Under the pieces are notes generated by a model. That model was not told where the DNA came from. It saw only the letters and a program-made list of their open reading frames with translations, and did no database searches. From positions 1 through 20,093 of the forward strand of contig JAFZDR010000089.1 in the NCBI GenBank assembly GCA_017561105.1: DNA of 20,093 nt, written 5' to 3'. Each line of letters starts with the position of its first letter. Position 1 is the stretch's first letter. The translations under genes and the position numbers were made by a program. Shown piece after piece: positions 16,015 through 20,093 of the stretch. Source of the DNA: Alistipes sp. GTDB lineage: Bacteria > Bacteroidota > Bacteroidia > Bacteroidales > Rikenellaceae.

Positions 16015-17985
16015 ATGAAACGATTTCTGATTTTAGCAATGGTATTGGTTGGCACATTTGCAAGTGTGTCGGCTCGCGAAATATACTCTTTGAATAGTGG
16101 TTGGAAGTTTTTCTACAAGGAGGAGAACTCGAGCGATAATGCTCGTGAGGTAACTCTTCCTCACACTTGGAACCTCGATGCATTCGTTGGCGATGGCTCG
16201 TACAATCAGACCGCTGCCAACTATCAGCGTACACTCTTTGTACCTTCGGAGTGGAAGGGCAAGCGACTCTTCTTGCGCTTCAACGGCGTGCAGAGTGTGG
16301 CCGATGTCTTTGTGAATGGTCGCCATGTGGGCGATCACTATGGCGGTTATACTGCTTTTACATTCGAGATTACCGATAATGTGTCGTATGGCTACAACAA
16401 TGCCCTTTTGGTGGCGGTGAGCAACACCTATCGCAACGATGTTCTGCCTACCTCGACCGAGGAGAATATATATGGCGGCATCTATCGTGATGTTGAGCTT
16501 ATCGTAACCGACAAGACCGCTATTTCGCCATTGTACTACGGTACTGACGGTGTTATGGTGCACCAGACAGATGTGTCGAAGGAGCGCGTTTCGGGCCGCG
16601 TGGATGTGGCACTGCTCGGTCGCAAGGATGCAATACACAATGTAACTGTAGATTTCCTCGCTCCAGATGGTTATGTGTCGTTGACTAAGTCGGTCAAAGC
16701 AAAGATTGATGGCAACCTTGTGGCTGTGCCGTTCACAATCGAGAATGCCGAGTTATGGTCGCCAATGAACCCTCGACTCTACACCGTTCGCGTAACCGTT
16801 GGCAACGATGAGGTGGAGGTTAAGACCGGTTTCCGTCGTCTTGAGGTTACGCCGGAGAAGAAGTTTACCGTAAATGGTCGTCGCGTGCGCGTTCGTGGTG
16901 TTGTACTCGGACACGACAGAGTTCCGAAGGGAAATGCCGTGAGCAGTGCCGAGCTCAACTCCGATTTGGCACTCGTCCGCGAGATGGGCGCAAATGCCGT
17001 TCGTTCTGTTACAGGCCCGCATTCTCAGCACCTATATAGCGAGATGGACCGCCTCGGAATGTTGGCGTGGGTGGATTTTCCGTTTACCCGAGCTCCATTC
17101 TTGAGCGATATACCTTACTACTCGACACCGCGTTTCGAGATGAATGGCTTGCAGCAGCTGCACGAGATAGTTTTGCAGAATATAAACCATCCGTCGGTGG
17201 CTATGTGGGGTGTATTCTCGATGTTGCGAGGTAACTCCAAGCAGCAGATGGACTATATCCGCAAGCTCAACTCAACAGCAAAGAAGCTCGACTCGTCGCG
17301 CCCTACGGTTGCTATGAGCAATCAGGATGGCGATATCAACTTTATCACCGATTTGATCGTATGGCAGCAGGCTGTAGGTTGGGAGAATGGCGAGATTACC
17401 GACCTCGATTTGTGGCAGGGTGCTTTGCGCTCGAGCTGGAACCATCTTCGTCAGGCTGTTTGCTATGGCGAGAGCTCAAATCCTGCAAATGGCGTGGGTG
17501 TGGTAAAGTGCAATAACTCGGTGGCGGCAAGTGCGCGTCAGCAGAGGTTCCATGAGGGCTATTCACGCTTAGTGGATGAGGAGTTGTTCTGGGGAGTATG
17601 GCTCAATTCAATGTTCGATTACGGCTCGGCACGATATATCCGCGGAGTGCGCAACTCGGGTGTTGTTGCGGGCGATCACAAGAGCCGCAAGAACCTCTTC
17701 TACCTCTATAAGTCGCAGTGGAATGGTCGCAAGCCGACACTCCATATTACTGATAAGGATCGCGCAATTCGTTCGGACGAGAAGCAGGTTTTGACCATAT
17801 ATTCGTCGATGGGTCTGCCTGTGATGACTATCAATGGCGATACCGTAGCGTGCCACAATGTTGCACGCACAATCTACCGCACCGACACTCTCACTTTGAA
17901 GGGCGAGAATGCAGTGAAGGTTACTGTGGGTGATAAGGTCGATGAAATGACGCTTACAATTGGCAACTATCTAAGAGTGAAATAG
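16015..17985 (+). CDS. Secreted GH2-family glycoside hydrolase homologue, divergent catalytic site
   Basis: This has the beta-galactosidase/glucuronidase/mannosidase architecture in 656 residues. The signal peptide (1-20) ends VSA. The sugar-binding jelly roll (about 22-165) has LPHTWNLDA, YQRTLFVP, LRFNGVQSVADVFVNGRHVGDHYGGYTAF and NIYGGIYRDVELI. An Ig-like domain (about 180-275) follows. The TIM barrel (about 280-570) contains VRGVVLGHDRVPKGNAVS, VREMGANAVRSV, MDRLGMLAWVDFPF, NHPSVAMWGVFSMLRG, and a conserved late segment FWGVWLNSMFDYG. The GNE that normally carries the acid/base Glu after HPSVxxW is replaced by FSM (401-403). E486 in CYGES could be the nucleophile. It may therefore be a non-hydrolysing homologue or a branch with a different acid. 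A short C-terminal beta domain ends it. The substrate is unknown. Confidence 0.85.
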   Translation: MKRFLILAMVLVGTFASVSAREIYSLNSGWKFFYKEENSSDNAREVTLPHTWNLDAFVGDGSYNQTAANYQRTLFVPSEWKGKRLFLRFNGVQSVADVFVNGRHVGDHYGGYTAFTFEITDNVSYGYNNALLVAVSNTYRNDVLPTSTEENIYGGIYRDVELIVTDKTAISPLYYGTDGVMVHQTDVSKERVSGRVDVALLGRKDAIHNVTVDFLAPDGYVSLTKSVKAKIDGNLVAVPFTIENAELWSPMNPRLYTVRVTVGNDEVEVKTGFRRLEVTPEKKFTVNGRRVRVRGVVLGHDRVPKGNAVSSAELNSDLALVREMGANAVRSVTGPHSQHLYSEMDRLGMLAWVDFPFTRAPFLSDIPYYSTPRFEMNGLQQLHEIVLQNINHPSVAMWGVFSMLRGNSKQQMDYIRKLNSTAKKLDSSRPTVAMSNQDGDINFITDLIVWQQAVGWENGEITDLDLWQGALRSSWNHLRQAVCYGESSNPANGVGVVKCNNSVAASARQQRFHEGYSRLVDEELFWGVWLNSMFDYGSARYIRGVRNSGVVAGDHKSRKNLFYLYKSQWNGRKPTLHITDKDRAIRSDEKQVLTIYSSMGLPVMTINGDTVACHNVARTIYRTDTLTLKGENAVKVTVGDKVDEMTLTIGNYLRVK

Positions 17986-18559
17986 CCTCGCGCCCCTCGC
18001 ACATCAGCAGGTCGAGCATCGATGCGTTCTCGACAAAAGGGGTACGATCCATAAACATCTGAAAGTATTGGGGGGAGCAGAATTGGCTCTCCCTTTTTTT
18101 GTCGCGCAGGTCGATTAACCCCTCGCTCGGCTCGATGTATATCTCCGAGAATTGGTGCTTTGGCTCTATGCCGAGGATATCGAATTCCGCCTGTAATATT
18201 TCGCGGTTGAGGTCGGTCAGGAAGTGCCACTCGCGCTCGTAGATTGGCGCAATGCGGTCGGCAATATAGTCGAAGTAGGGCGATGAACGATACGCCGAAA
18301 GAATTGCCACCCAATGCTGGTGCTGCCAACGCTTCGAATTGTCAATTCGCATGTCGCGCATAGGGGTACGAGGGCGGTTTGCCTTAATCAACGGCACCGA
18401 CAATACCATACCGCCCGTAGGGGTTACAATCTCCGTTCTGTTACGCTCCGAGCGCTTTACATAGTTTTCGCCGAGGTCAATAATTGCCTCTTCGCCGCCC
18501 TGCAAGAGGTTTGCGAAGTATTCGATATTTCCCCAATATGTTAGTGGTAGTATGGTCAT
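17954..18559 (-). CDS. WbqC-family protein
   Basis: This 201-residue cytoplasmic protein matches the WbqC family, which is found with O-antigen and surface-polysaccharide genes and whose reaction is poorly known. Typical features are the start MTILPLTYWGNIEYFANLL, ENYVKRSERNRTEI (a basic, nucleotide-sugar-type region in the family), LSVPL, RIDNSKRWQHQHWVAILSAYRSSPYFDYI, and FLTDLNREI. Its last 32 bases overlap the 3' end of the convergent GH2 gene on the other strand, so it has no room for its own terminator. The ATG at 18559 is 9 bases from the left repeat array of the four-helix-bundle cassette. It may be transcribed from the ispG side through that cassette. Confidence 0.88.
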   Translation of the reverse strand: MTILPLTYWGNIEYFANLLQGGEEAIIDLGENYVKRSERNRTEIVTPTGGMVLSVPLIKANRPRTPMRDMRIDNSKRWQHQHWVAILSAYRSSPYFDYIADRIAPIYEREWHFLTDLNREILQAEFDILGIEPKHQFSEIYIEPSEGLIDLRDKKRESQFCSPQYFQMFMDRTPFVENASMLDLLMCEGREAISLLDSCQL

Positions 18560-18568
18560 AATTTTTTA

Positions 18569-18608
18569 TAGAGGATATTAGAGGATATTAGAGGTGGTTA
18601 GGGGTTGT
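18569..18608 (+). repeat. Left terminal array of 10-bp units (TAGRGGNNNN x4)
   Basis: Four 10-bp units read outside to inside: TAGAGG+ATAT, TAGAGG+ATAT, TAGAGG+TGGT, TAGGGG+TTGT. Six bases are conserved and four vary. The array fills the gap between the start of the WbqC gene and the stop of the four-helix-bundle gene. It is mirrored in inverse orientation at 19170-19209. Confidence 0.85.
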
Positions 18609-19165
18609 TAGCGTTGTTTTTTATTCAGTTCGCCACGGCGAATACGAGATAACTTCTCGCGAAAACCTCCATCTTTAGCAAAACGAGCATATACGCTATT
18701 CATAAATTTATAGAGCATATAATCGGTTTGATATAAGAGAATAATTGCAATATTTGCAATGGTTTCATCGCTTCGAGTTGAGATAATATTCATCCAAAAT
18801 TCGCTATTATCGTGTTCTTTTCCTAATTCTTGTGCCTTGATAAATTCAGCTGAGTCTGCAGGCCATTGCCTTAGACCTCGAGTACGCAAATAGTCTTCGT
18901 AGTCTGCTAATAGCTCTTTAAGACTGCTTTTTGCAACATTGAGTAGCTTTAGCTCGCTTTCTATGGAGGTTTCCGATGCCGCATAACCTTCGATTATGTT
19001 TTGCTTGCCTGAACGAGCCGCTTGTATCATTTGATCTATAGTGCGGTCTGATGTTTTGAAAAATTTGTTAGCAAAGAAATATGTTATATCGTAAATTGCC
19101 TCTGCTTTGCGATAACATAGCAAGTCTCGATAATTACCCTTACGCTTAATAATTCCTTGTTCCAT
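18608..19165 (-). CDS. Four-helix-bundle protein (23S rRNA intervening-sequence protein family) with C-terminal suffix domain
   Basis: This 185-residue basic protein belongs to the family encoded inside 23S rRNA intervening sequences and related to Avd, the accessory protein of diversity-generating retroelements. The core (about 12-95) shows YRDLLCYRKAEAIYDI, RTIDQMIQAARSGKQNIIEGYAA (the family signature QxxxAxxSxxxNIxEG), and then SELKLLNVAKSSLKELLADYEDYL. A suffix region (about 96-160: LRQWP, AQELG, FWMNIIST, DETIANIAIILLYQTDYML) fits the longer version with a suffix domain. The tail is Lys/Arg-rich (RIRRGELNKKQR), suggesting nucleic acid binding. Its codons are A/T-richer than its neighbours'. 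It lies between ispG and the WbqC gene, flanked on both sides by the inverted 10-bp arrays. Its biochemical role is unknown. Confidence 0.85.
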   Translation of the reverse strand: MEQGIIKRKGNYRDLLCYRKAEAIYDITYFFANKFFKTSDRTIDQMIQAARSGKQNIIEGYAASETSIESELKLLNVAKSSLKELLADYEDYLRTRGLRQWPADSAEFIKAQELGKEHDNSEFWMNIISTRSDETIANIAIILLYQTDYMLYKFMNSVYARFAKDGGFREKLSRIRRGELNKKQR

Positions 19166-19169
19166 AACA

Positions 19170-19209
19170 AGACCCCCTAATAACCTCTAATAGCCTCTAT
19201 AAACCTCTA
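19170..19209 (-). repeat. Right terminal array of 10-bp units (TAGRGGNNNN x4)
   Basis: Read on the minus strand from 19209, the units are TAGAGG+TTTA, TAGAGG+CTAT, TAGAGG+TTAT, TAGGGG+GTCT. This is the same phase and unit order as the left array, but inverted. The first TAG (19209-19207) is the stop codon of ispG. The array ends 4 bases before the four-helix-bundle ATG. Confidence 0.85.
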
Positions 19210-20093
19210 CTCGCTCTCCTTCCAATCTCCGTTCACCTTGATAAGTTCGATAAGGTGCTCGAGTGCCTCTTCTTGCGGGATATTGCGCTCGATGCACTCC
19301 TTGCCCTTGTAGAGCGAGATGCGGCCTGCGCCAGCACCGACATAGCCATAGTCCGCATCGGCCATCTCGCCCGGACCATTTACGATGCAGCCCATAACGC
19401 CAATCTTCAACCCCTTGAGGTGTGAGGTGTGAGCCTTAATCTCGGCCAAGGCCTTCTCGATATCGTAGAGTGTGCGACCGCACGACGGACAAGCGATATA
19501 CTCAGTCTGCGAGAATCGTGCGCGTGATGCCTGAAGGATTATCAGCTCGATCTCGTTCAACTCCTCCTCAGAAATCTGCGGTGCATCGATCCATACGCCG
19601 TCAGCCAAGCCGTCGAGCAAGAGCTGTCCCATGTCTGCCGCTGCGCGGAGTGCAACCTCCTCTTTCGTGCCCTCGTAGTGGCGACGAATAACAACGGGTT
19701 GCTCGCTCTCGTTATTGAGAATTGCGGCGCGCCACTCGGCGGTAGGATTTTCGCTTGTGGCCTCTGTAACCATGTAATTGTCAGTTATTTCACTATGTGA
19801 AATAATCGGTGCCGAGGTGCGACGTCGGTACTCTGTCGGAGAGTAGAGTTCGGGGTGCAAAACCTCGAATTCGCCACTGCGATTTTGGAAATGCTCGACC
19901 AACATATTTGCTACAGGAATCTCATTCTCGGGAGCCTCGGCAAGAGAGACACGCACGGTGTCGCCAATACCATCGGCAAGCAGAGCGCCTATACCCACAG
20001 CACTCTTTATGCGGCCATCCTCGGCATCACCGGCCTCGGTAACACCCAGGTGCAGAGGGAATGATATACCCTCGGCAGCCATAACAGCTACAA
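19207..20093 (-). CDS. ispG: 4-hydroxy-3-methylbut-2-enyl diphosphate synthase IspG (partial, C-terminal part)
   Basis: IspG (GcpE) is the 4Fe-4S enzyme of the MEP isoprenoid pathway that converts MEcPP to HMBPP. The frame is open to the window edge, so the N-terminus is missing; the in-frame ATG at 20082 is internal (the codons before it read VAV). The fragment begins with barrel residues [22 protein letters not shown] and [15 protein letters not shown]. It then has the extra middle domain of the long Bacteroidetes/plant-type enzyme, and ends with the Fe-S domain [12 protein letters not shown] and [23 protein letters not shown]. The cluster ligands would be the two Cys of CPSC, the Cys of GCIVNGPGE and its Glu. 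The TAG stop codon is the first unit of the right-hand repeat array. Confidence 0.96.

Follow-up and report, generated by a model that had tools for sequence, protein, structure and literature searches.

A four-helix-bundle gene enclosed by two inverted tandem arrays: a candidate minimal mobile cassette in Alistipes sp.

REP and REPIN sequences are short palindromic non-coding repeats accompanied by a rare cognate gene flanked by them, and RAYTs are Y1 HUH transposases. Avd, a DGR factor, works with a reverse transcriptase and with template and variable repeats. The short tandemly repeated repetitive (STRR) heptamers of cyanobacteria are reportedly known from the work of Elhai and of Mazel. 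We know of no established job for the S23/IVP proteins, a family with solved structures (2gsc, 2rld) and with links to rRNA fragmentation and DGRs. In the available text of PMC4990558, the 23S rRNA intervening sequence (IVS) of Coxiella is 428 nt long, has terminal inverted repeats and an S23 ORF, and the authors cite the idea that the IVS ORF once served mobility. Heptamer arrays are listed in cyanobacteria, Xanthomonas, Beggiatoaceae, and Bacteroidetes (PMC4692102, PMC4679880, available text). They include GGGAATC in Xanthomonas, with 186 repeats in one X. campestris strain, and GGGGA(T/C)T in Nostoc (PMC4692102), and TAACTGA in Beggiatoaceae (PMC4679880). In X. campestris, the intergenic arrays are often inverted pairs (70 cases; PMC4692102). 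In the accessible parts of both papers, these arrays are described without a known way of spreading, and the text searched (for four helix, intervening, and S23) names no four-helix-bundle (FHB)/S23 partner for them. Searches of an open-licence PMC library, outside which most subscription papers lie, brought up no paper linking FHB/S23 genes to tandem arrays.

The locus described here lies in a window of 20,093 nucleotides, which is the whole stretch of Alistipes sp. DNA that was analyzed. It resembles the 23S IVS of Leptospira and Coxiella, as far as the available text describes them, in having a protein of the same family, complementary ends around a single ORF, and a similar size (Coxiella IVS, 428 nt; insert of the cyanobacterial relative L309, 428 bp; window cassette, 641 bp). 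However, IVS lie inside 23S rRNA genes, whereas the window cassette is intergenic, between ispG and wbqC. The ends of the Coxiella IVS are a 28-bp stem, with no tandem repeat mentioned in the part of PMC4990558 available, whereas those of the cassette are tandem arrays; here, moreover, many derivatives consist of arrays only, and in a relative the target site is duplicated. STRR-type heptamers and the window share intergenic arrays. The short FHB relatives have the 7-bp intergenic tandem unit of STRRs; the window does not, its unit being 10 bp and its protein belonging to the suffix-domain branch. With REP/RAYT systems, the cassette family shares short repeats and a rare cognate gene flanked by them, in that many dispersed gene-less copies stand against few gene-bearing copies flanked by the same repeat. 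It differs from them in its tandem-array ends and in its protein, a predicted four-helix bundle. The original prediction had called the element IVS-like or REP/RAYT-like. Both likenesses hold as analogies; membership of either class does not, since the cassette is not in a 23S gene and no HUH transposase was found in its ORF. Inverted ends, one ORF, gene-less two-ended derivatives, and (in the cyanobacterial relative) a target-site duplication recall IS elements and MITEs, but no transposase domain was found in the window ORF, and the tandem arrays that form the ends do not have the same unit in all lineages. The predicted fold is that of Avd, but unlike a DGR the cassette encodes neither a reverse transcriptase nor template and variable repeats.

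The cassette and its protein

The contig is no. 83 of a 246-contig genome of 1.64 Mb (69.6% complete). The positions of the cassette and its neighbors are given in Table 1. The left array reads, in order, TAGAGGATAT, TAGAGGATAT, TAGAGGTGGT, and TAGGGGTTGT; the right array, on the minus strand, reads TAGAGGTTTA, TAGAGGCTAT, TAGAGGTTAT, and TAGGGGGTCT. The core hexamers of paired left and right units are identical at 24/24 positions and the spacers at 8/16. The stop codon of the FHB gene adjoins the left array, and the outermost TAG of the right array doubles as the ispG stop codon. The repeat finder returned arms of 41 nt with 80% complementarity. Direct reading of the units and these arms bear out the predicted four-unit, 10-bp-phase arrays inverted around the gene. 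That the two sides match beyond chance is likewise upheld, both by the local-alignment score (45, versus 20 as the 95th percentile for neighboring ORFs) and by the pattern counts in congeneric genomes given below. A TAGGGG unit next to the gene had also been pointed out. This holds for the window, where TAGGGG is for instance the gene-proximal unit of the left array, but it does not extend to a strong rule: among 38 distinct TAGRGG arrays, TAGGGG is the last unit in 20 and the first in 12, a weak polarity, and the idea of a strong one was dropped.

Table 1. Positions, in the window, of the cassette features and of the genes that mark the insertion site
Feature	Position	Strand	Basis
WbqC-like flanking gene, outside the cassette, insertion-site marker	17954..18559	-	PF08889, E 5.5e-30
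Left array, four 10-bp TAGRGGNNNN units	18569..18608	+	read directly; repeat finder
FHB (four-helix-bundle) gene with suffix domain, 185 aa	18608..19165	-	ORF, TIGR04258/TIGR02436, AlphaFold model
Right array, four inverted TAGRGGNNNN units	19170..19209	-	read directly; repeat finder
ispG, 3' part, flanking gene outside the cassette, other insertion-site marker	19207..20091	-	PF04551, E 3.3e-60

The 185-aa protein scores over the cut-off with TIGR04258 (E 6e-15; 54.9 bits, cut-off 40) and TIGR02436 (E 1.3e-6; 28.6 bits, cut-off 24) and below it with PF05635 (E 4.6e-6; 27.2 bits, cut-off 33.8). Profile searches of the ORF returned only IVP/four-helix-bundle families, with no transposase domain and no Y1 HUH transposase. 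An AlphaFold model built from 31 sequences has a pLDDT of 92.4 and a pTM of 0.86. A fold search of the PDB with this model gave no match at E 0.001 or better, and fold-match probabilities for the best chains were 0.98–1.00. The nearest folds are 2gsc (XCC0516; E 9.1e-3, probability 1.00) and 2rld (BT_0352; E 0.11, probability 1.00), with the Avd structure 4dwl ranked lower (E 0.59, probability 0.98, TM-score 0.74 over the target); none of the best matches is a known nuclease or polymerase. The locus-tag prefix of XCC0516 presumably points to the X. campestris strain with the 186 GGGAATC repeats. With two profile cut-offs passed and an FHB fold predicted, the window protein belongs to the S23/IVP four-helix-bundle family and has the predicted S23/IVP/Avd fold.

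The dN/dS ratio was 0.05–0.19 in 15 of 17 gene pairs, five of these values being rough (dS > 1), and the other two pairs gave no value. The FHB protein is thus under purifying selection, and is therefore needed for something while cassettes come and go. For the two proteins tried in each case, no PHROGs family and no PADLOC defense family was found. No match occurred among 50,697 phage records, and plasmid carriage of the suffix protein was seen in one Prevotella nigrescens record.

Arrays around relatives of the gene

A profile search of the window's own genome found five TIGR04258 genes with four unit types. The four paralogues are also flanked by arrays, of three other units: TTACTAGCC-type on contig C73, TTGATAGGA-type on C156, and AATGGCA-type on both C120 and C138. 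Array-only copies of the window unit occur on C86, C133, and C170. Of 150 genomes from the family, 27 had TIGR04258 matches (26 over the cut-off), as had 50 of 395 from the phylum; each time, none of 14 control genomes did. Suffix genes were pooled from the window-genome and family searches (32), the phylum (26), and a named genome collection (80, the best of 568 confirmed), giving 138. Duplicates or fragments (L032, L041, L044) and truncated frames (L054, L055, L068, L073) were left out; the pool retains ORFs with a wrong start or end (for example, L095, L131, L136, and L146) and, in some cases, one contig seen through two collections. Contig 66 of genome G597 and L075, both 17006 long with identical flank sequence, were taken as one contig. 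Identical proteins were removed for the flank-periodicity, 8-mer, and inverted-alignment tests, leaving 130, and kept for the period count.

A periodic array, judged against 20 shuffles of each flank, is present on at least one side of 110 of the 130 genes, on both sides of 48, and on neither side of 20. Arrays around homologues elsewhere were thus borne out as predicted. By flank, 158 of 260 are periodic; for control stretches at a distance of about 1 kb, the figure is 18 of 205. In local alignment, 71 of the 130 suffix genes passed the inverted-flank test and 60 the direct one (control ORFs: 10/217 inverted, 25/217 direct). Direct similarity is nearly as common as inverted because many flanks hold both orientations. 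For this reason, and because variable spacers defeat exact matching, exact 8-mer sharing was uninformative (75 inverted and 77 direct of 130 at three or more shared words, no separation), and local alignment replaced it.

Short relatives without the suffix domain show a similar layout. A TIGR02436 search of 18 genomes gave 27 genes classed as short by open-frame length. Nineteen were read, some of them mutually orthologous (seven had no locus and one was a fragment), and their flanks hold inverted copies in 15/19 and direct copies in 1/19 (same controls). Plasmid searches with two short proteins returned 11 and 40 overlapping records. From these, 21 regions were read, 19 cyanobacterial (12 Nostocales), one from Riemerella, and one from Azospirillum. 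Inverted flanks were found in 15/21 and direct ones in 4/21 of these regions, which are partly dependent (L293 and L294 are related, as are L295, L304, and L309). The cyanobacterial FHB/S23 genes are flanked by heptamers. On the Azospirillum lipoferum plasmid (L307), inverted heptamers of GGACAGA type enclose an FHB-like frame that has no listed annotation; the array–FHB layout therefore also reaches Alphaproteobacteria.

The array unit follows the protein and not the site. Length and flank filters were passed by 121 genes, 120 of which had repeated hexamers, and 7091 of their 7140 pairs, those with outer flanks not alike, were compared. Flank-hexamer similarity rises with protein similarity, from a mean cosine of 0.005 to 0.36. 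The Spearman coefficient is 0.31, versus a maximum of 0.10 in 1000 permutations that ignore shared descent and host kinship. When any pair with tblastx-detectable likeness of neighbors was excluded (7056 pairs left), it was 0.309, versus a maximum of 0.094 in 500 permutations. The length of the unit likewise goes with protein type, at 7 bp for plain FHB proteins and 9–11 bp for FHB with the suffix domain. Periods were counted where the lag identity of a flank reached 17 of 21 or more. Such flanks of suffix genes (n = 115) have a period of 9 in 92, 10 in 19, 11 in one, and another in three. Short FHB genes of Bacteroidota have a period of 7 in 23/25 flanks, and plasmid FHB genes (n = 25) have 7 in 18, 14 in four, and 8 in three; the threshold was passed by 3/218 control flanks. 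It had been argued that a 10-bp period places the conserved bases on one face of the helix. This idea is rejected because periods of 7, 9, 10, and 11 occur by protein type, with 9 dominating the suffix-domain family and 7 the short family.

Relocation, empty sites, and gene-less copies

Two loci of the window's own genome, L013 and L014, share 720 bp at 82% identity, bounded by the arrays, with no match outside. The wbqC gene is present in 59 of 61 genomes, and 30 wbqC loci were fetched. At nine of these, wbqC and ispG occur together: the window and eight others. The FHB gene is absent at all eight of the other junctions, so that the expected empty sites in relatives were found. Since homologues elsewhere do carry arrays, both points on which a mobile cassette could have failed came out in its favor. 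The L013 site is filled by the same cassette in G591 (81% over the region), empty in G547 and G602, and occupied by an array remnant in G583 and by a short filler in G138. In G137, in G597, and, as far as its contig reaches, in G576, it holds other sequence with heptamer arrays. In G137 (contig 21, L352), the site contains about 1.25 kb with a non-FHB ORF bordered by arrays of two heptamer units.

A site upstream of a peptidyl-prolyl isomerase-like gene, identified by eye, carries a TAGAGG cassette in L075 and an AATGACA-type cassette in L023. Both outer flanks of the two loci are alike, and the cassettes and units differ. L040 has a cassette resembling that of L023 and a downstream flank common to this site. 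The same chromosomal places receive different cassettes in L022/L033 and L031/L038 as well, where neighboring DNA that is 89–92% identical and in inverted orientation lies beside different cassettes.

The cassette L309, on a Trichormus plasmid, gave the clearest insertion. Six records, which include several close strains, match both of its flanks at 97.9–98.6% identity over 1233 bp instead of 1661. In the one that was read, L343, 428 bp are absent and GTAAT occurs once instead of twice, which is a 5-bp target-site duplication at the L309 insertion. A decayed copy occupies the same site in L344. L295, compared with L368, has TTCTA on both sides by eye (flanks roughly 90% identical), and L308, compared with L368, has either ATG exactly or five bases with one mismatch. 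A clean duplication is thus seen in one cyanobacterial cassette only; at the window, L013, L011, L298, L293, L304, and L291, the sites are too diverged or re-used for a duplication to be read.

Three phased TAGRGG units were searched in 151 congeneric genomes, overlapping matches within one array being counted. They gave 77 matches in 10 genomes, versus six in three genomes for the backwards pattern. Thirty genomes, including nine of these ten, were searched for the gene. A close gene (at least 76%) was found in two: in G597 it lies between arrays, and in G602 it has an array found on one side. TAGRGG arrays without a close gene were found in G591 (24 matches) and G576 (7), genomes that are 86–87% complete. 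Many copies lack the gene but retain both array ends, for example in G591; in some of those in G597 and G591, a short loop joins an array to an inverted one.

Inserts that form small triloop hairpins separate array units in the D-side array of L013 and in copies in G591, G583, and G000 (L356–L367). Their stems vary on both sides (GCAATC/GATTGC, GCAGTC/GACTGC, GCACTCT/AGAGTGC, and ACAGTC/GACTGT). Among 107 inserts in arrays, 39% have stems of at least 5, versus 17% in shuffles. We take these inserts to resemble the small dispersed hairpins reported in cyanobacteria. In G591 (L271–L281, L356–L361), several arrays of more than one unit type are embedded in a larger repeat, which is bordered by GGCGCA/TGCGCC and has an outer part resembling GAGGTTGTCGGAACTC, with elements nested in one another. 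One of these loci, L271 on contig 10, has a 209-aa non-FHB ORF between outward-facing TAGRGG arrays.

A probable mobile element and the rival explanations

At the level of sequence, comparison shows whole-cassette relocation, empty sites, site reuse, gene-less derivatives, unit/protein coupling, and purifying selection. We consider it likely that the cassette is a minimal mobile DNA element with one FHB gene, whose ends are the two inverted tandem arrays. Gene and arrays would move as one block into intergenic sites, with a 5-bp target-site duplication in at least one cyanobacterial member, and the gene-less array-plus-loop copies, which are MITE-like, would presumably be mobilized in trans. 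FHB lineages have their own units, and the coupling of unit and protein suggests that the protein probably recognizes its unit. Binding could be to the unit in DNA, or to a folded RNA or single-stranded form. Several units along an array would give avidity, and two inverted arrays would let the protein hold, pair, or deliver both ends for insertion. Cutting might be done by the bundle itself or by a recruited enzyme. The protein could instead be a passenger or a regulator and not the actor in mobility.

One rival is an RNA element of the 23S IVS type: pairing of the arrays in the transcript would leave the ORF as a loop, the RNA would be processed and would spread by way of a host reverse transcriptase, and the FHB protein would be Avd-like. 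This seems to us rather unlikely, although several observations favor it. The predicted fold matches S23 family structures and Avd (4dwl). In the Coxiella IVS, an S23 ORF occurs together with terminal inverted repeats, and the element is excised by RNase III (PMC4990558, available text). In addition, the fold of the cassette RNA, in which the arrays pair, is better than those of 20 shuffles (z −5.1), and the triloop hairpins inside arrays show compensatory stems. However, none of the sites read in detail, the window included, lies in an rRNA gene, and the cassette encodes no reverse transcriptase. In the window, paired cores match throughout and spacers at only half of their positions; a continuous stem is therefore not what is conserved. 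Constant cores with loose spacers would suit core binding more than a long RNA stem.

Alternatively, the arrays themselves could be the mobile or expanding entity, through slippage, template switching, or homologous recombination between arrays, with the FHB gene as a hitch-hiker or array-binding regulator. Short tandem repeats do expand by slippage, in G591 and G597 arrays without the gene are more numerous than those with it, and the non-FHB ORFs of L271 and L352 also lie near arrays. Yet unit and protein change in step between sites that are unrelated, the protein is under purifying selection, and a clean 5-bp duplication is unexpected from slippage or inter-array recombination. We regard this explanation as unlikely. 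The last rival takes the arrays for regulatory or terminator repeats of the ordinary kind found at gene ends, with the enclosed gene incidental. It fits their place in short intergenic gaps and proposals of a regulatory role for such arrays in other bacteria (PMC4679880, available text), but is highly improbable, as the periodicity of the flanks far exceeds that of control stretches and this explanation leaves no room for empty sites, relocation, and unit/protein coupling, which already contradict it together with the comparison of the L013 site.

If the cassette is a minimal mobile element, its only protein would be a four-helix bundle, roughly 120 to 185 residues long. The layout across bacteria suggests that this type of mobile element is widespread but has been overlooked, and that the cyanobacterial repeat arrays have a protein partner. 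It would join these arrays and the S23/IVP family in a testable way: each unit would have its cognate protein, the type of protein would determine how long the unit is, and insertion would leave a short target duplication. More tentatively, and with somewhat more doubt than confidence, S23/IVP four-helix bundles may be dedicated mobility proteins, perhaps recombinases, of an unrecognized cross-phylum class of elements with protein-specific tandem-unit ends. The orphan heptamer arrays of cyanobacteria and Xanthomonas would then be gene-less derivatives of this class. The 23S IVS would be members left stranded within rRNA, and Avd would be a relative that was domesticated.

The entry ‘23S rRNA IVP’ appears in a figure legend that deals with CRISPR-linked genes (PMC10910872, available text). 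An FHB cassette hitch-hiking among cas genes may explain this entry and, if the mobile-element reading is true, the ‘S23’ genes that lie between cas genes. On the cyanobacterial plasmids L299 and L303, array-flanked FHB genes lie between cas6 and cas4, and on L305 such a gene lies between cas10 and a cmr3-type gene.
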